Assembly: GCF_004217095.1 (NCBI RefSeq)
Contig: NZ_SHKO01000002.1
Location: forward strand, 682,001-746,000
Length of the DNA: 64,000 nucleotides
From: Advenella incenata
GTDB lineage: Bacteria; Pseudomonadota; Gammaproteobacteria; Burkholderiales; Burkholderiaceae_B
Direction of reading: 5' to 3'
Shown: in pieces, positions 15,758-43,271 of the stretch
How the letters are laid out: each line of letters begins with the position of its first letter
How positions within the stretch are numbered: position 1 is the first letter of the stretch
Position numbers and translations under genes: made by a program
Notes under the pieces: generated by a model
The model's database searches: none
Seen by the model: only the letters and a program-made list of their open reading frames with translations
Told to the model about the DNA's origin: nothing

Positions 15758-16147
15758 TCGGGCAGGAAAAAGCGGGCATAGGCGCCTGGATTTTAATATC
15801 GATAAGACTGACGCTTCGTCTAGCGCGACCCGGTTTGAAGGACAGTCCAGAATGGAGCGGCCAAAGCTTGTGCTTCGTGCCCCAGTAGCGGCTTCTGTGC
15901 GTGACTGACGACAGCCAGCGGCGCTGTGGAATCATATTTTCGGTCAGGTTTATGCGGAGATTGCCAGATGTAATCACCGCAGTTTTTGCGGTGATTATGT
16001 GGCGTTCTCATGTGATCGTCAATTTTTGATGGTTATGCCATGACCAGACGATCGAGATTGGCTACTGCTGGGGGAAACGAGGTTGCATAACGAGTTTATT
16101 GAATATCGGTATGACAAGAATCAATCGCTAGCTGAGCCAGCCAATAA
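15758..16147. other. 390-bp intergenic stretch with one hairpin
   Basis: Between the small Sel1-like gene and the convergent tetR gene. Apart from the hairpin at 15971-15997 nothing was recognised. Open frames crossing it are continuations of shadow frames without ribosome sites. Confidence 0.5.
15971..15997. terminator. perfect 11-bp hairpin, probable bidirectional terminator
   Basis: TAATCACCGCA (15971-15981) and TGCGGTGATTA (15987-15997) form a perfect stem with a five-base loop GTTTT. It lies between convergent genes. A run of T directly after the stem is missing on the plus strand, so efficiency is uncertain. Confidence 0.55.
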
Positions 16148-16750
16148 TCATCCCGCCTGATCAGGCCAGGCCGCCATGGCCGTTTGCACCACTTTTTCCA
16201 GTACTGCGCGCGGCACGCCGTCCCGCATCTGAATGGCAAGGCCGTTCATCAGCGTTGCATAAAAACTGGCCAGCGCAGCCGTGTCAACGGTGTCCGACAA
16301 TTCCTTTTCGGCCTGGGCCTTGCGCAAACGCTGATGCACGGCTTCGTAGTTGCCCTGGCGCAGTCCCTTCAGAAAATCATCGACCTCGCGGTGTTCCTCG
16401 GCACAATTGGTGGCACCCAGCACCACCAGGCAGCCGTGGGTTTTGTTCGTGTTTGCAACTGGCCCCAGCGCCTCATGCAGCATGATTTCAATTGCCTTGC
16501 GTGCTGTTGGTTGCTCGCGCAGGGCACGGGCGGTCGCACTGCCGTCATGTGTGACGTAGTACTGCACCGTTTCCTTAAATAATCCTTCCTTGTTGCCGAA
16601 TGCGTTGTACAGGCTGGGCGCAGGAATACCCATGGCCGCAGTCAGATCGGCCATGGACGTGCCTTCGTAGCCGTGAGCCTGAAACAGCTGCATGGCGGCG
16701 CGCAGCACAGCATCTCTGTCGAAGGAGCGAGGTCGGCCTCTGGTTACCAT
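16148..16750 (-). CDS. TetR/AcrR family transcriptional regulator
   Basis: 200 residues. N-terminal HTH: RDAVLRAAMQLFQAHGYEGT then MADLTAAMGIPAPSLYNAFG and NKEGLFKETV, about residues 10-60. The C-terminal ligand domain includes a cysteine in KTHGCLVVLGATNC near 108-120. It is divergent from an SDR and an MFS exporter gene, the usual arrangement of a repressor with its targets, and near-identical 23-bp direct repeats in the shared 95-bp promoter region are probable operators. Confidence 0.92.
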   Translation of the reverse strand: MVTRGRPRSFDRDAVLRAAMQLFQAHGYEGTSMADLTAAMGIPAPSLYNAFGNKEGLFKETVQYYVTHDGSATARALREQPTARKAIEIMLHEALGPVANTNKTHGCLVVLGATNCAEEHREVDDFLKGLRQGNYEAVHQRLRKAQAEKELSDTVDTAALASFYATLMNGLAIQMRDGVPRAVLEKVVQTAMAAWPDQAG

Positions 16751-16756
16751 AACTAA

Positions 16757-16835
16757 ATTATATAACGATTACTCAAAAAATATGTTGACGGCGTGTGACA
16801 CTTCAATTTAGGATTATATAACGATCATTCAAAAA
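16757..16835. promoter_or_regulatory. two 23-bp direct repeats, probable TetR operators
   Basis: Copies at 16757-16779 and 16813-16835 share 21 of 23 bases (ATTATATAACGAT, then TACT or CATT, then CAAAAA), 56 bp apart. Each contains an imperfect palindrome around AACGATCATT. One copy sits next to the tetR start, the other ends just before the SDR ribosome site, so a single repressor could shut both promoters. Confidence 0.65.
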
Positions 16836-16845
16836 GGAAATTGAT

Positions 16846-17616
16846 ATGTTGCAGCTTACAGGAAAAACAGCCCTGGTCACCGGCGGCTCCCGTGGTATTG
16901 GCGCAGCCATTGTGCGTCACCTGGCAAAGGAGGGCGCGAATGTTGCCTTTACCTATTCCAGCTCGAGCGAGGCGGCGCAAAAATTGGTCGCAGAGATTGA
17001 ATCGCTGAAAAGCACCTCTGGCGAGGCGTCCCCAGCCGCGCCTGTAACGCTGGCCTTGCAAGTGGACAGCCTTGACCCCATCGCAGTGCAAGAGGCTGTT
17101 TCTACGGTCTTTAAGCATTTCGGCAAGCTGGATATTCTGGTCAATAACGCGGGAATCTTTGAATTGAAGCCAACTGGGGAATTCACGCTGGACGATTACG
17201 AACGCCAGATGGGCGTGAATGCCCGTGCAGTCTTTGCCGCCATTCAGCGCGCCGCGCAGGTCATGACCGACGGTGGGCGCATCATCAATATCGGCAGCAG
17301 CCTGGCCGAACGGGTACCCAGCCCGGATATGTCGCTCTATGCCATGAGCAAGGCGGCAGTGTGGGGGCTGACCAAAGGCGCCGCGCGCGACCTGGGGCCG
17401 CGTGGCATCACGGTCAACATTATCCAGCCGGGTTCGACCGACACCGACATGAACCCGGCCAACAGCCCGCATGCTGACGGTCAACGCAGCCTGCGCGCCA
17501 TCTCCAGTTACAACACACCGGACGAGATTGCCGCCATGGCTGTGTATCTGGCCAGCGATGCGGCACGCTCGATTACCGGCGCCAGCCTGTTGATTGATGG
17601 CGGCGCAAATGTCTAA
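16846..17616 (+). CDS. SDR family NAD(P)-dependent oxidoreductase
   Basis: 256 residues. Cofactor motif TGGSRGIGAAI (TGxxxGIG) near residue 11, NNAG near 100, catalytic Ser in INIGSSLAERV near 150 and YAMSK (YxxxK) near 165, with the C-terminal SITGASLLIDGG typical of classical SDRs. AAAGGAAATTGAT precedes the ATG. The MFS gene overlaps its stop codon, so the two are one operon under the divergent TetR. Reductase or dehydrogenase on a small carbonyl or alcohol is all that can be said. Confidence 0.9.
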   Translation: MLQLTGKTALVTGGSRGIGAAIVRHLAKEGANVAFTYSSSSEAAQKLVAEIESLKSTSGEASPAAPVTLALQVDSLDPIAVQEAVSTVFKHFGKLDILVNNAGIFELKPTGEFTLDDYERQMGVNARAVFAAIQRAAQVMTDGGRIINIGSSLAERVPSPDMSLYAMSKAAVWGLTKGAARDLGPRGITVNIIQPGSTDTDMNPANSPHADGQRSLRAISSYNTPDEIAAMAVYLASDAARSITGASLLIDGGANV

Positions 17617-29817: not shown

Positions 29818-31977
29818 ATGTCTGCGAATATAAATATATCGAACATAATCAACCCTGACCGGTTGATCAGGGTCTCCATTGCGGCGGATAATGCCGAATT
29901 CCTGTTTGACGCCATGCAAGGCACCGACGGGATGTCTACTCTTTCCGACTATACCGTACGCCTGCTGCATCGCTCGATGCAGGTCGATGTGCGGGCATTG
30001 CTTGGCAAGTCTCTCACGCTGACCATCAACACGGCGGCAGCGCCCCGGCATATCAATGGCGTGATCGCCAGTTTTGCGCTGGTAGGGCAGGAAGGCGACG
30101 TAGATCGTTACTTTGTTTACGAAGCGCGCGTAGTGCCCTGGTTCTGGCTGGCGACACACAAAAAAGAATTCCGCATCTACCAGAACCAGTCTGTGCCAGA
30201 GACCATCAAACAGGTGCTGGCGCCCTATGGCTATGCGTTTGAGTTCGACTTGGTAGAAAGTTACACGCCGCGTGTCTATTGCGTGCAATATGACGAAACT
30301 GATTTTCAGTTTGTGAGCAGGCTGCTGGAGGCCGAAGGCATTCATTATTACTTTCGTCATGAGCAGGAAAAGCACACGCTGGTCATGAGCGACGAAATCC
30401 AGAGCCACAAGCCGGTAGACGGTTACGAACACGTACCGTATTTCACTGAAGACAAACTGACGCTGCCACAGCAGGACTATATGACACATGTGGCGGTGTT
30501 TCAGGACCTGAGGCCAGGGCAATACACCACCAACGACTATAACTTCACCACACCCCGCGCAGACCTGGCGGCGCGCCAGCAAATCAAGCTGGATCACGCG
30601 CACAATGAAGCGGAAGTGTATGAATGGCCAGGCAATTACGGGGATGATCCGCTGGGCGAGCGTTATGCGCGCCAGCGCATGCAGGAACAACACCATGTTC
30701 GAGATACCAGGACGCTGCGCAGCACGGCGCGGGGCGTAGCCACCGGTTCGTTGTTCAACCTGGTTCGCTGCCCCCGTACAGAAGAAAACCGCGAATACGT
30801 GGTGCTGGGCACCAGTTATAATCTGAAAGAGAACAACTACCATTCAGTCGGCTCGCCAGAGGAGGCTGCCCAAAACGGCCGTCGTTGCGTGTTCGATCTG
30901 ACCGTGCAATGCGCTACCTTGCCGTTCAGGCCACCGCGTATTACGCGCAAGCCTCGTACCCAGGGCCCGCAGACGGCGGTGGTCGTCGGCCCCCAGGGTA
31001 AAGAGATCTGGACCAATGAATATGGCCAGGTCAAGGTGCACTTTCATTGGGACCGATACGACAAAAAAGACGAGAACAGTTCATGCTGGATTCGGGTTTC
31101 GAGCAGTTGGGCCAGTAGTAACTTCGGGGCGATCCAGGTACCGCGCATTGGTGATGAAGTCATTGTAGATTTCCTGAACGGGGATCCTGATGCGCCGATT
31201 ATTACAGGCCGGGTGTACAACGCGGCGATGATGCCGCCGTGGAAACTGCCGGAGAACGAGACCCAGATGGGGATTTATTCACGCTCCAGTCCTGGCGGCC
31301 ACTATTACACTGCCAATGCCTTCCGGTTCGAAGACAAAACAGGACGTGAAGAGATTTATATACACGCGCAGAAGGATCGAAACGAGAAGACCAAAAACAA
31401 CCATACCGAGAGAATTGACAATAACTGGGTTCAATCAGTGGGGCATCATAAGGTCATCGAAGTTGATGGAAACCACAGTGAATCCGTGCATGGGAACATG
31501 ACCTTGCACGTGGGGCCCAGCGGAATCGGTCGAGTGCTCTCCAAATCGTTCCGAAAGCTGGTAGAAGGTATCTCCGACATCGCAAAATCGTTGCCCATTC
31601 CCGGCATCAATCAACTGGGGCGCGGGGTGTACTCGCTTTTTGCGGATCAGGCGATCAACGAGGCGACAGCCGGCGTGAAAACGCAATTTGTCGGGATATC
31701 AAAAACGGTATCGGTCGGCAGCACCATCGTTGAGCAGGCCGGACATTCTATTCAACTTGTTTCCGGTTCGCACTTGTCAGGGGATGCGGGTGATACAGTG
31801 GCTTTTACGTCTAACGGCGAGTTTCATGTTCAAGTCGGAAAATCGGAATTGCGCTTAACTTCCGATGGATTCATCAGGTTGAGTGGAGATACTCTCTTTT
31901 TGAATTTCGAGAATGGCATTGAGATGCAAGCCAAGAACGAAATCGCGATGTCATCCGCGAAAATTAACCTCAACTGA
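29818..31977 (+). CDS. vgrG: type VI secretion tip protein VgrG
   Basis: 719 residues. The first 370 or so form the gp27-like base (RLLEAEGIHYYFRHEQEKHT near 165, typical of VgrG); the gp5-like OB domain begins near 380 (VVVGPQGKEIWTNEYGQVKV) with HFHWDRYDKKDENSSCWIRV and GDEVIVDFLNGDPDAPIITG; the repeat-rich beta-helix (THAQKDRNE-like TERIDNN, VGHHKVIEVDGNHSES) follows. The end ALRLTSDGFIRLSG-like region and MSSAKINLN is a normal VgrG tail with no toxin domain, so cargo must be separate. VgrG trimers cap the Hcp tube and carry effectors. No tss core genes are in the window; it is an orphan vgrG heading a cargo cluster. Confidence 0.95.
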   Translation: MSANINISNIINPDRLIRVSIAADNAEFLFDAMQGTDGMSTLSDYTVRLLHRSMQVDVRALLGKSLTLTINTAAAPRHINGVIASFALVGQEGDVDRYFVYEARVVPWFWLATHKKEFRIYQNQSVPETIKQVLAPYGYAFEFDLVESYTPRVYCVQYDETDFQFVSRLLEAEGIHYYFRHEQEKHTLVMSDEIQSHKPVDGYEHVPYFTEDKLTLPQQDYMTHVAVFQDLRPGQYTTNDYNFTTPRADLAARQQIKLDHAHNEAEVYEWPGNYGDDPLGERYARQRMQEQHHVRDTRTLRSTARGVATGSLFNLVRCPRTEENREYVVLGTSYNLKENNYHSVGSPEEAAQNGRRCVFDLTVQCATLPFRPPRITRKPRTQGPQTAVVVGPQGKEIWTNEYGQVKVHFHWDRYDKKDENSSCWIRVSSSWASSNFGAIQVPRIGDEVIVDFLNGDPDAPIITGRVYNAAMMPPWKLPENETQMGIYSRSSPGGHYYTANAFRFEDKTGREEIYIHAQKDRNEKTKNNHTERIDNNWVQSVGHHKVIEVDGNHSESVHGNMTLHVGPSGIGRVLSKSFRKLVEGISDIAKSLPIPGINQLGRGVYSLFADQAINEATAGVKTQFVGISKTVSVGSTIVEQAGHSIQLVSGSHLSGDAGDTVAFTSNGEFHVQVGKSELRLTSDGFIRLSGDTLFLNFENGIEMQAKNEIAMSSAKINLN

Positions 31978-31986
31978 ATTTAAATT

Positions 31987-32454
31987 ATGAAAGTAAGCCA
32001 ACGCCTTATTTCAACCGGAATAATATTTTTATTGTTTGCCGTACTATTGGGCACGGCACTTTTGGCAGGAAAAAAGAGCGAAGCCGCCCTTGTGTCGGAA
32101 AATGGTCAGCTTTCCTGCTCCAAAGAGCAATTTGACGACTACACCAAGAATATGCTTCTGGCAGGCGAAATGACGCTTTCCCAACAGCCGGACTCCGGCA
32201 CTCTGGCGCAGCAGCAAAAGCTGATTGATGCTTTTGCTGCCATGTCGCTGCCCAAGGATAAAACGGTCATTGCTGCGGGTCACACCGAGAGTGGGAAAGT
32301 TTATACAACGACGTGCGAAAGCGAAAAATGCACACTGAACGAAATGGCACAACCTGAACAGGCGTGCCTGAAAGCACATTGGAATGATTGTCCTTATGTG
32401 GGAATGCAGTTCAGAGAGAAAAAATATTGTTTTTTAGCTCCCGCCGGTCAATAA
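31987..32454 (+). CDS. uncharacterised exported Cys-rich protein of a VgrG cluster
   Basis: 155 residues. A hydrophobic segment at about 8-28 (LISTGIIFLLFAVLLGTALL) is a signal peptide or membrane anchor; the rest is hydrophilic with six cysteines (SCSKEQ, TTCESEKC, QACLKAHWNDC, KYCF), consistent with disulfides in the periplasm. I do not recognise the family. It lies nine bases after vgrG and one base before the next gene. An exported disulfide-bonded protein in this position could be an immunity protein for a periplasm-acting effector, but this is only inferred from position. Confidence 0.65.
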   Translation: MKVSQRLISTGIIFLLFAVLLGTALLAGKKSEAALVSENGQLSCSKEQFDDYTKNMLLAGEMTLSQQPDSGTLAQQQKLIDAFAAMSLPKDKTVIAAGHTESGKVYTTTCESEKCTLNEMAQPEQACLKAHWNDCPYVGMQFREKKYCFLAPAGQ

Positions 32455-32455
32455 C

Positions 32456-33286
32456 ATGAGCGATAACAAGTTCCCTTTTGGCAATGACATAACCAAGCCT
32501 GATCAATGGGTTGGCAATATGGCCACCAAATCGCAAAGATGGCTTGTTTCATATGAAGGCAGTTTTGCGATAGGTTGTGGATACCACAGCTTCATTTTCC
32601 TCGGGCTCGATAGCATGAGCATTGGAATTGCGAATATTTTGAATTGCGGGCTATCGGCCAGTCTGCCCATTGGCAAGCTTTTCAAAGCAGTGGGAGGTGG
32701 TGCCAGGGAGGCGCTTGCGCTCGATAAAGCAAATGATCTGGTTGGTAATGGCAAAAAGTCATACGATGCCGCCAAAATGGAGAGCGAACAGAGTAATGTG
32801 ACTTCCGGCATGGCGCTTTACGAAAGAATGAAGAAGGCCATCCCGCAGTACATGCGATCTGTTGTTCCGTTCTCATTGGAAGACCTGGCCGGAATGCCCG
32901 GGGGGATTGCTGGTGCCGAGGTGGAGGTAGTTGGCGCAGCGAGCATATACAGGATTGAAGGCTATGACAGTGTAAGGGGAGCGCTGAACAGCGAATTCAT
33001 CTTCGGCCCGGTTCATGTTGCTAATGCCGGTACTGGCCTGGTTTCCGCAGGAGTCAGTCTCGCTGTTGGGGTATGGAGTCTCGAGTCCAGTCATAATCTT
33101 TACTGGGAGCTGGGCAGAGCGGCGCAGGCGCGTTGTATCGTTGAAAACTCCTCGCCCGGCTACGATCAACCCTATCTGCAAATTCCTAACCTTCACCCGT
33201 ACTTGCAATCGCTGCCGCCGGCGGGTTGCTCTCCTTTGGACACGCATTTCAGTCCATCGAGAATGATTCCTCAGCCTTTTGATTAA
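32456..33286 (+). CDS. uncharacterised protein, candidate T6SS cargo
   Basis: 276 residues, no signal peptide, unrecognised. The middle has two glycine-rich hydrophobic stretches, FAIGCGYHSFIFLGLDSMSI with following IGIANILNCGLSASLP (about 37-72) and VHVANAGTGLVSAGVSLAVG (about 185-204), which could insert into membranes; the last 60 residues are proline-rich. No GxSxG, NlpC or HNH motif is visible. Position directly behind vgrG and an exported small protein, four bases before the next gene, is typical of a T6SS effector or its chaperone. Pore-forming activity is speculation from the hydrophobic segments. Confidence 0.6.
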   Translation: MSDNKFPFGNDITKPDQWVGNMATKSQRWLVSYEGSFAIGCGYHSFIFLGLDSMSIGIANILNCGLSASLPIGKLFKAVGGGAREALALDKANDLVGNGKKSYDAAKMESEQSNVTSGMALYERMKKAIPQYMRSVVPFSLEDLAGMPGGIAGAEVEVVGAASIYRIEGYDSVRGALNSEFIFGPVHVANAGTGLVSAGVSLAVGVWSLESSHNLYWELGRAAQARCIVENSSPGYDQPYLQIPNLHPYLQSLPPAGCSPLDTHFSPSRMIPQPFD

Positions 33287-33289
33287 ACG

Positions 33290-33883
33290 ATGACTTCCAG
33301 CCGTGATTCTCACCCTAACGCTCCCGCTTTAGCAGGCGCCATCCTTTCTGAGGGTGGTCAAAGCATGCCCGATTTGTGGCGTATCGTCCATTCAAACGCC
33401 AATCTTTGTGTGCGATTCATCAAGAGTGGCCGTACGAATCGAGAAGTAACCATTGCCGAGCTGATAGGGGAAGCACAAGATAAAATCAGGAGTCAATTTC
33501 AAAGCCTCGAGGCGCAGGCCTGGATAAAGCTCTGCACAGCGGCAGGAAATACTCAGATCGGTGCCGCCATGGTCTCATGGTGCATGAACGCGACCCCTGC
33601 CCAGGTTTGGGCGGCTTGGAAAGAGCTGGAACGCTCGATGCCTTTCGACGAGATCTTCTTTTTGGCAGCGCGCAATATGAATCAAGAGTTTTTGTTCGTC
33701 GAGAGAAAATTGTCTGCTTATGTGTCTCATTACTACGCCGACAGACTGAAAATGTATGTCTCTTTGGCTGCACACCCAAATGAGATTGAGTGCAACATGA
33801 CGCCCGCGCAATTGAGTTCGCTTCCGCGAGAGCTGGCCGATTTCCTGGCCCACCCGGCCGTGAACATTGTTGGGCGGGTATGA
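33290..33883 (+). CDS. uncharacterised protein of a VgrG cluster
   Basis: 197 residues, cytosolic by appearance, mostly helical, with tryptophan-containing segments (LEAQAWIKLCTAAGNT, PAQVWAAWKELERSMPFDEI). No family recognised. It follows the 276-residue gene by three bases, so the two are probably translated together. Possible roles are chaperone or immunity partner of the preceding protein. Confidence 0.55.
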   Translation: MTSSRDSHPNAPALAGAILSEGGQSMPDLWRIVHSNANLCVRFIKSGRTNREVTIAELIGEAQDKIRSQFQSLEAQAWIKLCTAAGNTQIGAAMVSWCMNATPAQVWAAWKELERSMPFDEIFFLAARNMNQEFLFVERKLSAYVSHYYADRLKMYVSLAAHPNEIECNMTPAQLSSLPRELADFLAHPAVNIVGRV

Positions 33884-33923
33884 TTGTTTCAGTGTAAGCC
33901 TCACCTTTGGTGGAGGCGTTCAG

Positions 33924-34043
33924 GTGTCTGACGGAGATAAAGCAATGCCAAAAACCGTGAGGTTAAAGGATATGGCGTTTGATCAGGATCGCTCTCCGCT
34001 CACCACGGCCAGTGAAGCGTCGCCAAAACGATTAGACGGATAA
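33924..34043 (+). CDS. very small ORF between the cargo genes and the HEAT-like gene
   Basis: 39 codons from a GTG with GGAGG seven bases upstream (33912-33916), or 32 codons from an ATG at 33945 that also has GGAGA in front. The peptide (SDGDKAMPKTVRLKDMAFDQ and so on) is hydrophilic and starts like small MPKxVRLxD proteins, but no family is recognised. Two good ribosome sites in the same frame and tight packing (40 bp after, six before the neighbours) favour a real or recently truncated gene. Confidence 0.4.
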   Translation: MSDGDKAMPKTVRLKDMAFDQDRSPLTTASEASPKRLDG

Positions 34044-34049
34044 ATCTGC

Positions 34050-35288
34050 ATGACAAAAACTATGGCCATTTCCAGAGGATTCAAAGCGTTGATCAAACTT
34101 CCCGTGCTACTCAAATGCCTTTTTGTGATTTTATTGGCAGGCAATACTATCTGCTTCGCAGCCACAGTTGACGAAAAAATCCAAACCGCTTTCGACACGA
34201 TGGCGTCAACAGAAAACCAGAATGATTTCTACGCTGCGGTACGCAGTATAGCTGCACTTGGAAACGATGCTGTTCCTGTGCTGACAAAACGCTTGATTGC
34301 CGCCGCAGACGATGAGCAGCGGGTACAGATTAGCTATGTACTCGGAACAATCCTGGGTCAGGCGAAGTTCAAGCGCGAAACGGTGAACGTGCCTGCTGAA
34401 CTGGTTGAGTATACGGGCCAGGCGTTGCTGGCGTCGCAGGAACTGGCATTCGAAGCCAATCTGGCGAATCTGGCCGTGTCTATCGCCCCTCACCCGGCCG
34501 AACTTGTCCCGGGATTGCTTGCCCTGCTGGAACGAACTGAAAACGAAGGGCTGGGAGCGACAACCTCGGTAGCCATTGGCTCACAAGGTGATGGCATGCT
34601 GCCGCTGGTGCGACAGGCGCTGTTGAACACCGATAATGACAGGTTCGCCGGCGACCTTGCATGGATTCTTTACGATACGGAACTGCCGGAAAACGTGATC
34701 GTCAAACTGCAATCTTTGCTGAAATCTGACATTGCCTCTGGTCGAAAAAATGCGGCTCGCACGCTTGGGCGCGCTGGTAAAACCGAGGGACTGCTGCAGG
34801 CCGCACTGCTTGATCTCGCTTCTGCGAAGAAGGGGATGGATCTGAATGTGGCCGCCGGGGCTGTGAAAAAATATACGGATGGCAGCGTGCAAGTTGCCCA
34901 GGCGCTCGCAGAGGCTTTTGGTCGGGCAAATCGAATGGAAGAGCGGATGACAATCATCGATGCGTTAATTGCGACAGGAGAGCCGGGAAAGCGCAAAGTG
35001 TTCGAGCTTATTGAAGCGGCCAGCGATTCTGAAATTGTCCGCGATCTGATGATGAGTACGAACAGCCGCTTGAAGGATGATGTTCGCCTGCCGCAGGCTT
35101 ATCTGACACTCCTGAACAGATCGGACAATGACAACTTGAGTAAGGTAGCGATACAAGCCCTTGTCATGACGGGAGAAACCGGGCGTGCGGTTGTTGCCGC
35201 CAAGATCAAAGATCAAAGCATTGACGACGGATTAGGTCAGAAATTACTGCGCGGTTTTGATTCTAAAACTGCGCCTAATCCCCAATAA
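34050..35288 (+). CDS. exported HEAT-repeat-like protein
   Basis: 412 residues. A long N-terminus ends in the hydrophobic VLLKCLFVILLAGNTICFAA, a signal peptide cleaved near residue 38. The mature part is all-helical with HEAT-like units, for example SIAALGNDAVPVLTKRLIAA, ARTLGRAGKTEGLLQAALLD and VAIQALVMTGETGRAVVAAK. Such scaffolds usually bind other proteins. Within a VgrG cluster it could be a periplasmic immunity or accessory protein. Family not recognised beyond the repeat type. PAAR follows after 30 bp. Confidence 0.6.
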   Translation: MTKTMAISRGFKALIKLPVLLKCLFVILLAGNTICFAATVDEKIQTAFDTMASTENQNDFYAAVRSIAALGNDAVPVLTKRLIAAADDEQRVQISYVLGTILGQAKFKRETVNVPAELVEYTGQALLASQELAFEANLANLAVSIAPHPAELVPGLLALLERTENEGLGATTSVAIGSQGDGMLPLVRQALLNTDNDRFAGDLAWILYDTELPENVIVKLQSLLKSDIASGRKNAARTLGRAGKTEGLLQAALLDLASAKKGMDLNVAAGAVKKYTDGSVQVAQALAEAFGRANRMEERMTIIDALIATGEPGKRKVFELIEAASDSEIVRDLMMSTNSRLKDDVRLPQAYLTLLNRSDNDNLSKVAIQALVMTGETGRAVVAAKIKDQSIDDGLGQKLLRGFDSKTAPNPQ

Positions 35289-35318
35289 ACACCATAGCTG
35301 ACTCGGAGGAATATAAAA

Positions 35319-35684
35319 ATGCCAGCAGCAACACGTCAAGGAGATGTCGGTTCCGGTCACGGTTGTCATTTTCCTGCAACCAATGCAAGCGGGGGTAGCC
35401 CGACAGTTTTTATCAATGGCAAACCAATAATGCGTTTGGGCGATAGTTACGAGTCTCATGCCTGCTCTGCGGGACATGCTGGCTCACACGAGCGTGCCTT
35501 AAGCGAAGGGTCAGCGAGTGTATTCATCGAGGGCCGGCCTGCTGGAAGAGTGGGAGATGCTATTGATTGCGGCGGTGCCGCGCAAACGGGTTCCTCGGAT
35601 GTGTTCATCGGCGATGAAGGGCCAGGCGGAACCGAATGTCAGATGAAACAGGCCAAGCAAGCTTCGCCCGCGACAAAAGGTTAG
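35319..35684 (+). CDS. PAAR domain protein
   Basis: 121 residues with GGAGGA before the ATG. MPAATRQGDVGSGHGCHFPA at the start and VFINGKPIMRLGDSYESHAC, VFIEGRPAGRVGDAIDCGG further on are the PAAR repeats; the His and Cys residues (HGCH, HAC, DCGG) can bind the zinc at the tip. PAAR proteins form the sharp cone on VgrG and can carry fused or adaptor-bound effectors. It is followed by a DUF4123 adaptor after five bases. Confidence 0.92.
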   Translation: MPAATRQGDVGSGHGCHFPATNASGGSPTVFINGKPIMRLGDSYESHACSAGHAGSHERALSEGSASVFIEGRPAGRVGDAIDCGGAAQTGSSDVFIGDEGPGGTECQMKQAKQASPATKG

Positions 35685-35689
35685 TCAAT

Positions 35690-36712
35690 ATGCAAGATTC
35701 GGCGGTAGTTGATTATTTGCCGGATGAGTATCCACGGTTGCGTGATTACCTTTTTGCGCTAATAGCGGATCCAGATACCCGGGTGTATGCCGTCATGGAT
35801 GGTGCTTTTTTTCAGAACATCGCAGCAAAACTACGGGATGCCGGATTGGCGCGTCGGTCGCTCTATCGCTATGGTGGTGATTATTCAGTCGTTATGGGTG
35901 GACCGTGGTTAATTGATCCTTACCAGCAAGAGAATTCGGGCAATCTCTCCATTGAAACAGGAAATGTGTCAAACGAACAAAGAATTACTGAGATCACCTC
36001 ACGATTCGAAGCCATACTGCAGCTTGCCGCAGATACATCTGGCCTGGTGTTTTGGGTTGGAGACGCATCGCTCACGGAAGCTGCTCTTTATGACCATTTG
36101 CGCAGACTCAATCAGATAGAAGTCCCAAAGAGTTCTTCTGAGAGCAACGAGTCAGCAAATTCAGGCGGCTATGAACTCGTGACATTTCGGCATGCGGATG
36201 CCAATGTGATGGCGCAAGTGTTGCCTTCCCTGGATGCCAGTCAACTATCCCGGTTGTTTGGCTCGTGTCGACAGATTTTTTTTAAGCCTGAACCGGACTG
36301 GAGTAAAAGCGCCATGCGTATGGTAAGGCCAGATGATCTACCTGAGCCACCTGGCGGGCCATTGCGGTGGACGCATCAAACTATATGCGCGATAGAAGGT
36401 ATGCGTTTTAACTGGCTTACAACACGAACCATGAAATACCTGCACAAAGTAGCGGACCAGCGCGTTAGGGGTATATCAGACGAGATGTTGAGGACAGACG
36501 TGCACAAATGGCTAAAAGCAGCTGCTGCGCATGGGGTGAATCAAGAGTCCGCCTTTAGAAGATGGGCTTATTTGCAGGTTGTTACGGGAGGAAGATTGGA
36601 AGTGGCTCCAGGACTGAGCGATTTTATGATTTCGGCTGAGCTGACTTCCGACCCGAACGAAAGGGTAAGGATTCTGATGCGAGAAACTATTAAATATTTG
36701 AAGGGAGTTTGA
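35690..36712 (+). CDS. DUF4123 T6SS effector adaptor protein
   Basis: 340 residues from the ATG at 35690; an upstream in-frame start at 35636 would overlap PAAR by 49 bp. The DUF4123 domain spans about residues 20-150: RVYAVMDGAFFQNIAAKLRD, SLYRYGGDYSVVMGGPWLID, and SGLVFWVGDASLTEAALYDHLRRL. The C-terminal part is variable. DUF4123 proteins (Tap/TEC) load a specific effector on VgrG or PAAR and are usually encoded just before it. The next gene, starting two bases after, encodes the toxin-like 152-residue protein, so that is the probable client. Confidence 0.88.
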   Translation: MQDSAVVDYLPDEYPRLRDYLFALIADPDTRVYAVMDGAFFQNIAAKLRDAGLARRSLYRYGGDYSVVMGGPWLIDPYQQENSGNLSIETGNVSNEQRITEITSRFEAILQLAADTSGLVFWVGDASLTEAALYDHLRRLNQIEVPKSSSESNESANSGGYELVTFRHADANVMAQVLPSLDASQLSRLFGSCRQIFFKPEPDWSKSAMRMVRPDDLPEPPGGPLRWTHQTICAIEGMRFNWLTTRTMKYLHKVADQRVRGISDEMLRTDVHKWLKAAAAHGVNQESAFRRWAYLQVVTGGRLEVAPGLSDFMISAELTSDPNERVRILMRETIKYLKGV

Positions 36713-36713
36713 T

Positions 36714-37172
36714 ATGCCAGCTCCTGCCATTCCATTGGTGATCTGGGGGATCGGCGGCCTTCTTTTGGGCGGTGCCGCTCATGAACTTACACCTGGCAAG
36801 GAACAGCGAGAACACGATTTGGAAAATCTCGGTGGTGCTATCTTTGGGAGTAACGCCACGCAGATGGAGCAAGCGGATGAGGGGGCAGAAGACGATTCAC
36901 TGCCAGGTACTGTTATCGATGCATGCTCAACATGCGAGCCCCCAGATGATGAGGACGAGCAAGCGGCCAAAGATTCCAAAAGAATGTCGAAAAAAGAGCT
37001 GGAAAGCGCAGCTAAGAAGAATGGTTATGAAGATGCCCATGCCTTGAAACGAGATTATGGCCTGGATTCCAGAAGCGATATTTTTGTTGATAAGCAAGGT
37101 AACATGTATGCGGGACCGAGACAAGGAACCGGAACGCCTCAACGACTAGGAATAAATATTAATGGATTATAA
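36714..37172 (+). CDS. small toxin-like effector, probable T6SS cargo
   Basis: 152 residues. A glycine-rich hydrophobic segment at 7-21 (PLVIWGIGGLLLGGA) is followed by an acidic linker with CSTC, and a C-terminal module from about 88: KNGYEDAHALKRDYGLDSRS, DIFVDKQGNMYAGPR, then TPQRLGININ. That module resembles short C-terminal domains seen on polymorphic toxins, where E-DAHxLK and D-x-F-x-D are conserved, but I cannot name its activity with certainty. It follows the DUF4123 adaptor by one base and overlaps a DUF4279 gene, the arrangement of an effector and its immunity gene. Confidence 0.65.
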   Translation: MPAPAIPLVIWGIGGLLLGGAAHELTPGKEQREHDLENLGGAIFGSNATQMEQADEGAEDDSLPGTVIDACSTCEPPDDEDEQAAKDSKRMSKKELESAAKKNGYEDAHALKRDYGLDSRSDIFVDKQGNMYAGPRQGTGTPQRLGININGL

Positions 37173-37542
37173 GATGCAAATAGATTTATGCTTATATGGA
37201 AATTCGATACCGCCGAAAGAAATAACGGATATGCTCGGAGTCGAACCAGATACGGCATTATTGAAAGGAGAGAGAAACAAAGAACGTGATCTGCCACGCC
37301 AAAACCTTTGGTCTTTACGTTCGGATCCAAATGGAGATAGCGTTGAGAAGCAGTGGTATTCCATTATTCAGAGATTGGGAAATAAATGGGATCAGTTCGT
37401 TGATGTTTCAAAACGCGGTGATGTAAAGATTACTATTATTGTTAATGTAGATGAATATATTCCATCAATCATGATTCCTCCAAACATGGCATTCGCTGCG
37501 GCGACTCTGAATGCGTATATTGATATAGATCACTATAAATAG
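37162..37542 (+). CDS. DUF4279 family protein, probable immunity protein
   Basis: 126 residues; the ATG at 37162 overlaps the toxin-like gene by 11 bp (a second ATG at 37174 is possible). SIPPKEITDMLGVEPDTALL near 15 and NLWSLRS near 48, followed by LGNKWDQFVDVSKRGDVKI, match the DUF4279 family, commonly found beside toxins of polymorphic systems. The stretch is visibly more AT-rich than the vgrG region, typical of exchangeable toxin-immunity pairs. Protection against the 152-residue protein is inferred from the overlap. Confidence 0.8.
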   Translation: MDYKMQIDLCLYGNSIPPKEITDMLGVEPDTALLKGERNKERDLPRQNLWSLRSDPNGDSVEKQWYSIIQRLGNKWDQFVDVSKRGDVKITIIVNVDEYIPSIMIPPNMAFAAATLNAYIDIDHYK

Positions 37543-37567
37543 GGTATTTACCCTGATTACAGTTCTG

Positions 37568-37721
37568 GAGGGTGTAAATAATTCTGTGTAACCGCCTGAG
37601 TTATACATGATCGCTGATGCGATCTTCGAATTCAATGATAAACCGATTCAGTGCAGGCTTCCAATCTTTACCCGGTCTGGGTGTAATAATAGACGGTTTA
37701 CACAGTTTTATTTACAGACTC
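37568..37721. mobile_element. 154-bp deletion remnant of an IS256-family element
   Basis: The left end GAGGGTGTAAATAA (37568 on) and, inverted, the right end GAGTCTGTAAATAA (ending 37721) match in 20 of the first 24 bases and continue CTGTGTAA in both, the form of IS256-family terminal repeats. Between them only the last codons of a transposase remain. No 8-bp target duplication flanks it (CAGTTCTG left, GGGCGGTG right), so ends were probably rearranged. It separates the T6SS cargo cluster from the CDI remnant. Confidence 0.75.
37601..37696 (-). pseudogene. C-terminal fragment of an IS256-family transposase
   Basis: On the reverse strand the frame ending at 37601 reads TPRPGKDWKPALNRFIIEF then EDRISDHV and stop. 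W-x-x-ALNRF-x-I-x-FEDR is the characteristic C-terminus of IS256 transposases. About 30 codons are left of some 400; there is no start and no DDE residue, so it is dead. Confidence 0.7.
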
Positions 37722-38112
37722 GGGCGGTGCAATATCGCGCCCATGTCCTGATAGATGGGGACCAGCCTGATATGCTAGCTATGTAAGCGCTGTTTCTGAA
37801 TACGGACCTATCTTTTTTTCTAGCGCGGCTGGCTCTCTTGATTGTCGTCGCAATTGCGATAGCTCTTTATCGCAAGACTATTGCCGATATCGCTTATTCG
37901 GTGCTAATGGTTGTAGTATTGGTTTTTTTTTTGGCCAACTTGCTGTCGGTCACTGTTTATCGGATATTGTCCTGAGAACGCCAAACATAACCGTACTGCA
38001 AATATCACGCTTGAAGCCAGCTTTCTGCGTGATTTTTTTGATCTATGTAAATTACTTTTGACCGCTGTACTCTTAGAATGCTCGCAAATAGTCGTCACGT
38101 TTGCAGGCAGCG
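37722..38112. other. stretch holding a startless two-helix membrane ORF
   Basis: A frame ending at the TGA at 37973-37975 encodes about 60 residues with two strongly hydrophobic segments (LARLALLIVVAIAIALY and SVLMVVVLVFFLANLLSV). It is open back to a TAA near 37786 but has no ATG; only CTG, TTG or internal GTG codons. It contains runs of seven T (about 37808) and ten T (37923-37932). It may be a broken or unusual small membrane protein of the toxin island. Nothing else was seen here. Confidence 0.35.
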
Positions 38113-38823
38113 ATGGTGTATTGGTCAATTCTCAGGCTTCATAATTGGCAGCCGCCAGGAAAGCGGGAACGTCCCTTTTCTTCACTTCGTACACGCCATA
38201 GGCATTATAGGTTGCGGCTTGTCTGCATCATGCCAATGCTCAGCGTGCTTGCAGCAGCCAACATCAGCGCGCAAACGCTTCGTGCAGACTTGCTGGATGC
38301 CCAGCACATTCAACGGCAGCAACAACAGCAACAATCCCTTAAAAGCCGCTTGCCATCGGCAGACGTCACCCCGTTCATTCCCACCATTTCCCCTATCGAT
38401 CGCACGCATTATCCCGCCGAGACACCTTGCTTTCCAATCACGCATGTTACCTTGAATGGCGATTCGGCCACGCGTTTTGCATGGGCGCTGGATGCGGCCC
38501 TTGCTCCCAGGAACACGACGGGCCATTTACCGTCGCCCATAGGGCAGTGCCTTGGCGCGCAGGGCATTGAATTGTTGGCCAGCCAGGTGCAGAACTCAAT
38601 CATGGCTGCTGGGTATATTACCAGCCGTGTGATGGTCGAGCCCCAGAATATCGGCGCCGGACATCTGGCACTGTCGCTTATCCCAGGGCGAGTCCATGAG
38701 ATTCGTTTTTCGGGGGCAGCCTGGATGCCGACAACCATGCGACGGGTACAGCCTCTTCGATCGTCAATAACGGTTCGATCATTGAAATTGCGGGCTCCGC
38801 GACGGTTCATACCGAGAAACTGA
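38113..38823 (+). pseudogene. truncated TpsB/CdiB two-partner secretion transporter
   Basis: The frame starts with an Arg-rich leader and signal region (LRLVCIMPMLSVLAAANISA), a poly-Gln stretch and then the POTRA domain of ShlB/FhaC/HecB proteins: ETPCFPITHVTLNG near residue 110, GQCLGAQGIELLASQVQN, and AGYITSRVMVEPQNI to LIPGRVHEIRFS. A complete protein would continue with a second POTRA and a 16-strand barrel to about 560 residues. Here homology stops at about 38712 and the frame runs out of register into cdiA sequence, ending at 38823. Without the barrel it cannot export a partner. Confidence 0.75.
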
Positions 38824-38828
38824 ACAAT

Positions 38829-41800
38829 GTGAATGCGGATTATCGGACTCAATTGCAGCAGGTGGGTCCCATTCAAAAGGTCGTAGAGTTCGAACCCATT
38901 ATCGGTGGGGCGATCACGGCAGAACAGGCACTCAAGCTGCAGGCAGGTCGCGATATTGATATTGCCAGTACGCTGACCCATTCGGACAGCCGTTCCGGCC
39001 AGGACCGGTACCAATATACGGGCATTGATCGCCTGGCCGGCCTATACGTAACCGGAGCGCAGCAACCCGGTCAACTGCATGTGCAGGCGGGGCGCAATCT
39101 GACACTGACCGCCGTTGCTGTTGCGAATGCCGGCAAGGCTGATGAGAGCAGTACCACCTTGCAAGCCGGCAATGACCTTGCATTGAAGACCCTGACCACG
39201 AGTAAAAGCGACCTGGTGGTGAGCGATGCCAGGAACTTTGTCAAAAGCGCGTCTTCACAAGAGGTGGGCACGCAGATCGCCAGCGAGGGCGACATCCGGC
39301 TGCAGTCGGCCAATGACGTCACGCTTAGGGCGGCCGATGTCACCAGCCAGCAGGGCGCTGTGGTGGTTCAGGCAGGGCGCGACATTGGTATCCAGGCCGG
39401 TTCGTTTGAGCTTTCCGGAACCTTGCAAAATTACGAGAGTAAGCGTAGCGGTCTGGCCACCAAATCATCGGTCATCAAGAGCGACGTACAGCGGCAAACG
39501 TTGCAGGGCAGCGCTGTCAGCGGCGACACAGTAAGCCTGCTGGCCGGGCGCGACCTGAGCATTGTTGCCAGCGATGTGGTCTCGGATAATAACACCACTC
39601 TGGCCGCCAAAAACAACGTTCGGGTTGAAGCTGGGACCGAGAGAAGCCGCGAGCACGATTACCGCAAGACTACTAAATCGGGAATATTAAGCGGTGGCAC
39701 ACTGGGCTTTACCATCGGCTCGCAAAGCAGCACCTACCGGATGGATGCCGAGGGCGCCATGCAAAGTCAGGCGCGCAGCAGCGTGGGCAGCCTCAACGGC
39801 GATACCAGGCTGTTTGCGGGAGAACAGCTCACGGTTCGCGGTTCAGACGTATTGGCCCAGGGCGATGTACTGCTCAAAGGCAAGGCCGTGGTCATAGACC
39901 CGGGCACAGACCAGCGGCAGAGTAAAGAAGTACATGAGTTCCAGAAAAGCGGCCTGACTATTGGCGTAGAAGTGCCGGTTGTTGAGGCTGTGCAGGCGGC
40001 GGTGCGTGCAGCCGAGCAGAATGGCAAAAGCAAAAATGCACGCGTCAATGCGATGGCGGCGGCCAATACCGGATGGTCTAGCTACAAGGCCGCGCAGCAA
40101 ATGGGCAATATGGGGCAGGCCATGGCTCAGCTACAGGCCGGGGACGCCAAGGGCGCCGCCAGCACCTCTGGTATTAAAGTGTCCATCACCTATGGCAACC
40201 AACGCAGCCGCAGCAGTACCGAGGTGCAGCAGACACAGACCAGCGGCAGTCAGGTGCTGGCACAGAACACTGTCACCGTGCTGGCAGCGGGTGGGGGTGC
40301 AGACTCTGACATTACAGTCACCGGTTCCGACATTGCCGGCAAAAAAGGCACCATTCTGATAGCGGATGATGCCATCAGCCTTGCTGCTGCAGCACAAACC
40401 TATAAAGAGCGCAGCAAAAACAGCTCAGCTGGCGGCAAAATTGGCGTGTCTGCCGGCTACGAAAATGGCTCTGCGGCAATAGGCATTACGGTGGGCGCGA
40501 ATGTTGGCAAGGGTCATGGCAAGGGCGATGAAACCCGCTATGAATATACCCATGTGGGCGATCGCAATAGCCGGACCGTGCTGCACAGCGGCGGTGGCAC
40601 CACCCTGAAAGGCGCACAGGTGGCCGGCTCGCAGGTGGTGCTGCAGGCATCGGATCTGTCCATCGAAAGTCTGCAAGATACCTCGACCTACAAGGGCAAG
40701 CAGTTGAACGCCCAGGGCGAAGTCACCATTGGTTACGGGGCATCCGGATCGGGCAGCGCGTCCAAATCCAAAATCTCGGCCGACTACGCCAGCGTCAATG
40801 AACTATCGGGCATTTTTGCGCAGGATCTGGGTTACCAGATCGACGTTGATGGCCATACCGATCTGACGGGGGCAGTCATTACCTCCAGTGCCCAGGCTGA
40901 GGCAGCAGGCCGAAATCGCCTGACCACTGGTACGCTGGCCGCACGCGACATCAAAAACTACAGTCGCGTCAAGGCCAGTAGCGTAGGCATTGGCGGGGAT
41001 GGTGGCTTCATGGGCGGTTCGGGACTGGGCGGAGCAAAAGGCCTGCAGGCAAGCATGGGCTTCGGCTCGGTCAGCAGCAATGAGAGCAGCGTAACGAAAA
41101 GCGGCATCAATACCGCCAATATCAACATCACTCGGCCAAAAGCGCAGCAGGAGAAGACTGGAAAATCCGTTGCCGAGACTATCGTCGCCATTAACAACCC
41201 GCTCACGAGCGACGAGGCGCTGACGTATGCGGGTCTGGGAAACAGTTTCGACAAAGAAGCGGTACAAAACGAAATCGATCTGCAACGCGACGTGTCGCAG
41301 GCCTTCAGCAAAAACAGCCAGGAGGCATCCGCCGAACTGAAAAAACGCATCGCCAGCAACGATGCCCTGTTCGAGGTTGGGCTGATCAGCGAACAAGAGC
41401 GCGATACGCGCAACGCCTCGCTGCGCAACTATGCCTGGATACTGGAAACGGTGGCTGCGGGTCTGGCAACTCCATCCGACAGCCTGACCGGCTCGCTGGT
41501 GGCAGCCGCCAGCCCAACCATTGCCAAGGAAATAGGCCAGCAGTTCAAGCAGACTGGTCAGGAAGGCTCAACCGGACATTATCTGGCGCATGCGGGGCTT
41601 GGTGCGCTGGTAGCTGCTGCGACGGGGAACAGCATCGCCGGCAACGCACTTGCCGCAGCGGGTTCCGAAGCGACGGCACCCGTGGCAGCCAACCTGATCT
41701 TCGGTAAAGACGTGAGCCAGTTGACACCGGATGAGAAAGCGACGGTGAGCTCGATTGCGGGTCTGGCTGGGGCTAGACTGTCCGGAGCCGCGGGCGGGGA

Positions 41801-42752
41801 CGGTAGAAGTCTAGTCAGCGGCAGTGTGGCGGGGCGTACGTCGGTGGAGAATAACTATCTGACTGCCGAGCAGCTGGATAATTTTGCGCAACGGGCGAAG
41901 AATTGTTCTGGAGCGTCATGCAAGAAAGTCATTCAGGACATGGTGGATACCAATGTTCAACAGCAGGAGGAAATTAAAGCCGTGTGCTCAGCATCGCCTG
42001 AGCAGTGCCAGCAAAAATATGGTTATTTGATTGAACAGTGGGATGTTTTTGATAAAGCGATAAAGAAACTAGCAGCGGATAAAACATTGCCAGGTGGGTT
42101 CCGAGACTATATGCCTGCTGTTTATATGATGGATACTGAAGCGCAAGGTATTGCGGTTCAGTATGGCTGGACTAAGCGCTTTGAGACGATGGGGCTTGAT
42201 AGGGAAACGGCTGAAATGATGGCAGTAACTCTTCCGGCAATACTAAATGAAGGACGTGGAAAAGGTAGTAAAGGTGGTAAGGTAATCACAGATAAAAAAA
42301 CAAAAATTGCTGGATTTGAAGGCGAGCAAAAAGAATCAAATAAATTAAGTGCAAACTCTAAAAAGACAAAAAATCTCAGCCAAAACGAAGTTAACTCAAT
42401 TTATAACCAGCAACTGATTAAGGATGCAGAAAAAATTTCAACGGCTAAACCAGGGAAACAAGCAGTTGTACCGAGAGATCTTAATGAACAAATGTTCTGG
42501 CAGTCCGTTCAATCTAAACCATTACAAGGTAAAGAGTTGCCTGGATTAAATAATGATCCTCGTTTTCCGACATCAGCAGGCTTTCAAAAGATGGAAGCAA
42601 AACACAGACTTCCAGATGGTCAAACTATAACCATACATTATCAGTACAATTCAACTACTGGTAAAGTTTATGATATGAAAATTGCTACACCACAAAGGGT
42701 TCAACAAGATCCGAAAAAAGTTGTAGACACAATAAAGGATAAAGTTAAATGA
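38829..42752 (+). CDS. cdiA: CdiA/FhaB-type hemagglutinin repeat protein, N-terminally truncated, with toxin C-terminus
   Basis: 1307 codons from a GTG at 38829; cdiA-like coding (SLDADNHATGTASSIVNNGS) actually extends upstream to about 38715, where it abuts the tpsB fragment in another frame. There is no signal peptide or TPS domain, so half of a usual 3000-residue protein is gone. Visible parts: hemagglutinin repeats (QAGRDIDIAS, LLAGRDLSIVASDVV, FAGEQLTVRGSDVLAQGD), the pretoxin region (HAGLGALVAAATGNSIAGNA, DEKATVSSIAGLAGA) and VENN at 41844-41855. The 299 residues after VENN form the CT toxin, visibly AT-rich over its last 500 bp; its activity is not recognised. Overlap with a putative immunity gene follows. 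Secretion would need an unlinked CdiB and an N-terminus, so it is probably an inactive relic or recombination donor. Confidence 0.8.
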   Translation: MNADYRTQLQQVGPIQKVVEFEPIIGGAITAEQALKLQAGRDIDIASTLTHSDSRSGQDRYQYTGIDRLAGLYVTGAQQPGQLHVQAGRNLTLTAVAVANAGKADESSTTLQAGNDLALKTLTTSKSDLVVSDARNFVKSASSQEVGTQIASEGDIRLQSANDVTLRAADVTSQQGAVVVQAGRDIGIQAGSFELSGTLQNYESKRSGLATKSSVIKSDVQRQTLQGSAVSGDTVSLLAGRDLSIVASDVVSDNNTTLAAKNNVRVEAGTERSREHDYRKTTKSGILSGGTLGFTIGSQSSTYRMDAEGAMQSQARSSVGSLNGDTRLFAGEQLTVRGSDVLAQGDVLLKGKAVVIDPGTDQRQSKEVHEFQKSGLTIGVEVPVVEAVQAAVRAAEQNGKSKNARVNAMAAANTGWSSYKAAQQMGNMGQAMAQLQAGDAKGAASTSGIKVSITYGNQRSRSSTEVQQTQTSGSQVLAQNTVTVLAAGGGADSDITVTGSDIAGKKGTILIADDAISLAAAAQTYKERSKNSSAGGKIGVSAGYENGSAAIGITVGANVGKGHGKGDETRYEYTHVGDRNSRTVLHSGGGTTLKGAQVAGSQVVLQASDLSIESLQDTSTYKGKQLNAQGEVTIGYGASGSGSASKSKISADYASVNELSGIFAQDLGYQIDVDGHTDLTGAVITSSAQAEAAGRNRLTTGTLAARDIKNYSRVKASSVGIGGDGGFMGGSGLGGAKGLQASMGFGSVSSNESSVTKSGINTANINITRPKAQQEKTGKSVAETIVAINNPLTSDEALTYAGLGNSFDKEAVQNEIDLQRDVSQAFSKNSQEASAELKKRIASNDALFEVGLISEQERDTRNASLRNYAWILETVAAGLATPSDSLTGSLVAAASPTIAKEIGQQFKQTGQEGSTGHYLAHAGLGALVAAATGNSIAGNALAAAGSEATAPVAANLIFGKDVSQLTPDEKATVSSIAGLAGARLSGAAGGDGRSLVSGSVAGRTSVENNYLTAEQLDNFAQRAKNCSGASCKKVIQDMVDTNVQQQEEIKAVCSASPEQCQQKYGYLIEQWDVFDKAIKKLAADKTLPGGFRDYMPAVYMMDTEAQGIAVQYGWTKRFETMGLDRETAEMMAVTLPAILNEGRGKGSKGGKVITDKKTKIAGFEGEQKESNKLSANSKKTKNLSQNEVNSIYNQQLIKDAEKISTAKPGKQAVVPRDLNEQMFWQSVQSKPLQGKELPGLNNDPRFPTSAGFQKMEAKHRLPDGQTITIHYQYNSTTGKVYDMKIATPQRVQQDPKKVVDTIKDKVK

Positions 42753-43069
42753 GAATAAAAGAATCGAATGGTGAATCTATTGATGTATTTGCTATTTATT
42801 GGATAAATAATAAATCGCTATGCCTTGGGTTGCCTAAAGGATATGGAGGCCTATCTGTTTATGACCTATCGGAAGTCGATTTAATAGAGTCAGAACTGAA
42901 TGGCAAGCTGATCTACTTCCAAAATGAAGGAGCTGGTTCTGGTGTATATCATTGGGCCCTAATCGAAGAGTCATTATTAGATGGCTTACTTGAATTAGAT
43001 GAAACTGCCTATAAAAGGTTTTTAGATATATTAAACGCTGAAGGTCAATTAGACGATGACTTTTATTGA
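42749..43069 (+). CDS. cdiI: probable CdiI-type immunity protein
   Basis: 106 residues, overlapping cdiA by the four bases ATGA. Acidic (IESELNGKLIYFQNE, LLELDETAYKRFLDI, ending GQLDDDFY) and AT-rich like the toxin part before it. No family is recognised; the assignment rests on position directly behind a CdiA C-terminus and on overlap, the standard arrangement in which the product binds and neutralises the cognate toxin. The intact frame suggests continued selection or recent arrival. Confidence 0.65.
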   Translation: MRIKESNGESIDVFAIYWINNKSLCLGLPKGYGGLSVYDLSEVDLIESELNGKLIYFQNEGAGSGVYHWALIEESLLDGLLELDETAYKRFLDILNAEGQLDDDFY

Positions 43070-43157
43070 TAATTACGATCCTAAACCTCTTTAGTCTTTT
43101 CACTACCCTTTTATCAGCCTGATAAATTAAAACGTCCAAGCAACGGAGAATCCGAAA
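43070..43157. other. short gap between cdiI and the cdiA scrap
   Basis: Contains CTTTAGTCTTTTCACTACCC and an AT-rich stretch but no gene or clear terminator. Confidence 0.4.
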
Positions 43158-43271
43158 TTGATATTGGAAAAGATCTTGGCGACGGTGAGTTCGCTCGCGG
43201 GACTTGCCGTAGCAGGGCTTGCGGGAGCTGTCGGTGACGATGGCAAGAGCGTACAACGCCAAGACCAATAG
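43158..43271 (+). pseudogene. orphan fragment of a cdiA pretoxin region
   Basis: The frame KLILEKILATVSSLAGLAVA, continuing GLAGAVGDDGKSV and a stop at 43269-43271, repeats the cdiA segment LIFGKDVSQLTPDEKATVSS with IAGLAGA, GAAGGDGRSL, with about eleven residues missing between LI-GKD and ATVSS. It is a leftover of a second, displaced cdiA-CT unit, as in orphan cdiA-CT/cdiI arrays. It lacks VENN and any toxin. From 43272 to 43390 nothing further was recognised. Confidence 0.65.

Follow-up and report, generated by a model that had tools for sequence, protein, structure and literature searches.

A CDI locus of Advenella incenata that has very probably decayed through two deletions, with loss of its export parts

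How does the front of a cdiB gene come to lie directly against the later part of cdiA, in a different reading frame, and what can such a locus still do? The question is raised by a stretch of 64,000 nucleotides from Advenella incenata (hereafter the window; contig NZ_SHKO01000002.1, positions 682,001 to 746,000), in which all features of the locus lie on the forward strand. As discussed below, the locus is very probably a decayed contact-dependent inhibition (CDI) locus (two-partner secretion, cdiBAI) from which two deletions have removed the parts needed for export.

The 5′ remnant of cdiB, a TpsB gene, occupies 38113-38709 within an open reading frame at 38101-38823, and the ATG at 38113 is its probable start. 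It comprises a signal region, a Q-rich stretch and a POTRA_2 domain (Pfam, E 1.2e-12; about 38503-38688), and is preceded by a leader (38025-38112) that is conserved in the intact loci of relatives. Next to this stub, about 1300 codons of cdiA are kept. The open reading frame at 38829-42752 encodes hemagglutinin repeats (Fil_haemagg_2, best match about 40194-40712) and a PT-VENN domain (41712-41864), with the VENN motif itself at 41844-41855 and a toxin tip (CT) at about 42402-42749. The two frames differ and the switch is located in GTTTTTCGGGGG; past this point, the cdiB frame continues for about 37 codons out of frame, up to a stop at 38821-38823. Thus, the Pfam domains and the change of frame bear out the first-pass annotation, made from the letters alone, in its claim that the POTRA part of cdiB abuts hemagglutinin-repeat coding in another frame.

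Among nine other genomes of the same genus, three (G003, G006 and G004) carry this locus. In all three, cdiB is intact, with 613, 618 and 614 codons from stop to stop, respectively, and it is followed by cdiA on DNA orthologous to the window, which places the locus within CDI/two-partner secretion ancestry. A single frame encodes CdiA in G006 (3152 codons) and in G004 (3208 codons). The intact CdiB of G006 carries POTRA_2, POTRA_3 and ShlB domains, and its CdiA carries ESPR, TPS, Fil_haemagg, Fil_haemagg_2 and PT-VENN. The cdiA of G003 (locus L014) is broken up into several frames, and opposite window position ~40616 it has a single-base indel; these breaks are due either to decay or to errors in sequencing. 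Downstream of its intact cdiA, G006 (locus L015) has another, partial stretch of cdiA (reverse strand, 15969-17359), which is probably an orphan module. The conserved leader of the window aligns with both L014 and L015.

When the window is aligned to each of these relatives, three separate pieces are obtained (~38007-38709, 38708-38900 and 38899 onward), and the losses are therefore two deletions and not one. The alignment with intact cdiBA loci that had been proposed as a check places the breakpoints at 38708-38709 and 38899-38900. The cdiB remnant has 85% DNA identity to the intact cdiB of G003. At junction 1, the relatives' cdiB homology stops at 38709 and their cdiA homology starts at 38708; the DNA absent here amounts to 4644 bp relative to G003, 5155 bp relative to G006 and 5111 bp relative to G004. 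This deletion takes POTRA_3, the ShlB barrel, the ESPR signal, the TPS domain and the front part of the CdiA stalk. An island of about 190 bp of mid-cdiA follows (38710-38900; DNA identity of 90% to G003, 78% to G006 and 74% to G004). At junction 2, 1710 bp (G003) or 1704 bp (G006 and G004) are absent, all divisible by three, so that about 570 further stalk codons are missing in frame; the retained 3′ part of cdiA then extends over 38901-42752. Because the frame is kept at junction 2, this deletion could not be seen by the first-pass annotation, which had proposed a single deletion fusing cdiB to the later part of cdiA: the fusion stands, the single deletion does not. At both junctions, the parent sequences overlap by 2 bp (TT). 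Within 60 bp of the break ends, the words in common reach at most 8 and 7 bp, no longer than those shared by random pairs, and deletion mediated by repeats was rejected on this ground. These breakpoints probably reflect illegitimate recombination, and not recombination between stalk repeats.

The missing parts are not found elsewhere in the genome. A stretch of G003 spanning both losses matches it only at the retained pieces. No ShlB domain (PF03865) was found in the whole genome by a search that was positive in all five sister genomes, and no TPS domain (PF05860) by one that was positive in four of the five. POTRA_2 occurs once, in the cdiB remnant (38113-38709), and no full-length cdiA was found in the genome. 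Thus, the search for another cdiB, also proposed beforehand, returned no other TpsB barrel, and export in trans is not available; the two components by which functional two-partner secretion is recognised, a TpsB with a ShlB β-barrel and a CdiA with a TPS secretion domain, are both missing. Together with the domains of G006, these searches agree with the earlier list of lost parts (barrel, signal, TPS domain and front of CdiA). By contrast, the suggestion of a sequencing or slippage effect misses the main matter: a base error could shift the frame at junction 1, but it could not remove at least 6.3 kb that is absent from the whole genome. In effect, a one-base error would have no bearing on function, because the barrel, the signal, the TPS domain and a large share of the stalk would be absent all the same.

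The history that best fits these observations would begin with a cdiB-cdiA-cdiI operon, as in the sister species, that lost two stretches, probably via illegitimate recombination at 2-bp matches. The first loss would have joined cdiB at codon ~199, out of frame, to mid-cdiA, and the second would have stripped about 570 more codons from cdiA while keeping its frame. The products would be a transporter stub with the first POTRA only and no barrel, and a cdiA fragment with neither signal nor TPS domain; therefore, nothing should be exported. The remnant most likely makes no working weapon, while the CdiA-CT coding region and cdiI would have come through intact. Expression of cdiI may still be driven by the upstream region that is left, and its product may give protection from neighbours with the same toxin.

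In the assembled sequence, both the CT coding region and cdiI (42749-43069), whose start overlaps the end of cdiA, are indeed intact, complete and full length. A polymorphic CT with an adjoining immunity gene, as well as hemagglutinin repeats with PT-VENN, are marks of CDI loci, and both are present here. The DNA homology with G003, G006 and G004 stops before the CT. Instead, the CT matches plasmid-encoded proteins of Arsenophonus nasoniae (70% over 148 residues) and also Duffyella gerundensis; direct alignment puts its last ~116 residues at about 92% identity to Arsenophonus, with the linker accounting for the lower overall figure. CdiI is 91.5% identical over its full length (106/106 residues) to the product of an Arsenophonus gene adjoining the related CT, and 48% identical to that of Duffyella, with the same gene order in both. 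In both genes, dN falls well short of dS. In the PDB, neither the toxin tip nor CdiI had a convincing relative, and no Pfam family points to an activity of the predicted tip. The CT-cdiI pair (42402-43069) thus has a counterpart with ~92% identity on a plasmid of an insect symbiont from another order, which suggests that the pair was transferred horizontally. Between cdiI and the next gene, at 43130-43253, short stretches resemble (by tblastx) the CdiA CT of G006 (L015) and the window's own pre-VENN coding at 41739-41813, and are read as the scar left behind when one or two cdiA-CT ends were displaced. Stepwise replacement of CT modules has been described in Acinetobacter (PMC6336857) and in E. 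coli and Yersinia (PMC3150448), and scars of this kind would be expected where it has occurred.

The age of the losses may be judged from the retained 3′ part. Over 38904-42230, the window is 90% identical to G003, has no stop codon and shows a dN/dS of 0.106, with 15 nonsynonymous and 77 synonymous substitutions on the window branch and 10 and 61 on the sister branch. Since this part is open and dN/dS is about 0.11, the decay is probably recent, with most of the divergence probably older than the deletions. Nevertheless, a low dN/dS and an open frame would also fit a cdiA fragment that is still under selection. It is thus a tentative possibility, compatible with the deletions, that the cdiA fragment and cdiI form a retained, selected module, with cdiI serving for immunity and cdiA-CT as a reserve. 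Both cdiA-CT and cdiI are open over their full length, the high identity with the Arsenophonus copies given above covers all of CdiI and the last ~116 residues of the CT, and the orphan cdiI of E. coli EC93 is expressed and functional (PMC3150448). Against this, the conservation relative to Arsenophonus is mostly older than the deletions, so it gives no sign of later selection. That the main CDI locus has as a whole turned immunity-only, with the strain disarmed and cdiI (with the CT in reserve) kept under selection, seems rather unlikely.

An assembly artefact, in which the true cdiBA would be intact and the assembler would have collapsed it at two points, is much harder to sustain. In its favour, genes for CdiA are long and rich in repeats, and the assembly consists of 10 contigs. 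However, this assembly is rated 100% complete and the absent sequence occurs nowhere in it, and both barrel and TPS domain are missing; in addition, the break ends have no more than 2 bp in common and no repeat that could mislead the assembler, and both junctions lie well within their contig (C2). A natural, functional POTRA-hemagglutinin architecture is close to untenable: both parts are open reading frames, but they are read in different frames, the order is complete in all relatives, neither barrel nor signal is left, and none of 150 other genomes from the family has the junction. With no intact copy in the genome either, neither of the two outcomes named beforehand as speaking against a deletion, homologues of the same architecture or an intact cdiB/cdiA, was encountered.

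The surroundings of the locus also differ from those in G003, whose matches to window positions 32000-32476 and 38007 onward are only about 166 bp apart, while ~5.5 kb separate them in the window. The region between (about 32476-38007) encodes PAAR, DUF4123, Ntox33 and DUF4279 proteins, a VgrG-like gene at 29818 lies upstream, and the region resembles a type VI secretion effector cassette that has been inserted beside the CDI locus. No relatives were found when the cdiA remnant was searched against a genome contig collection (which may omit near genomes) or when window positions 38000-39500 were searched against plasmid DNA. Scans for promoters and terminators gave nothing above chance, and a literature search for CDI in Advenella gave nothing relevant.

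The decay through two deletions described here is an ordinary fate of a well-known system and changes no general idea. Nonetheless, it offers a clean example of the loss of CDI, with both break ends readable to a precision of 2 bp, and it cautions against reading a working system into the cdiB and cdiA annotations of this genome.

Among known systems, the window resembles the cdiBAI CDI loci (type Vb) in its cdiB-cdiA-cdiI order, its POTRA_2, hemagglutinin repeats, PT-VENN and VENN motif, and its variable CT with an overlapping immunity gene. Unlike them, it lacks the transporter barrel, the signal and TPS domain of CdiA, and a large part of the CdiA stalk. It also resembles orphan cdiA-CT/cdiI modules (PMC3150448; in Acinetobacter, PMC6336857), as it combines a 5′-truncated cdiA that has no export signal with an intact immunity gene. 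However, orphan modules are displaced copies 3′ of an intact, full-length cdiA, whereas here the main locus is truncated in place. Finally, a 3,557-bp deletion is described in the cdi locus of Yersinia pestis Microtus 91001 (PMC3150448); like those in the window, it is of kilobase scale and is recognised through relatives. The Yersinia deletion joined an orphan CT to the cdiA upstream of it, whereas those in the window would destroy export.
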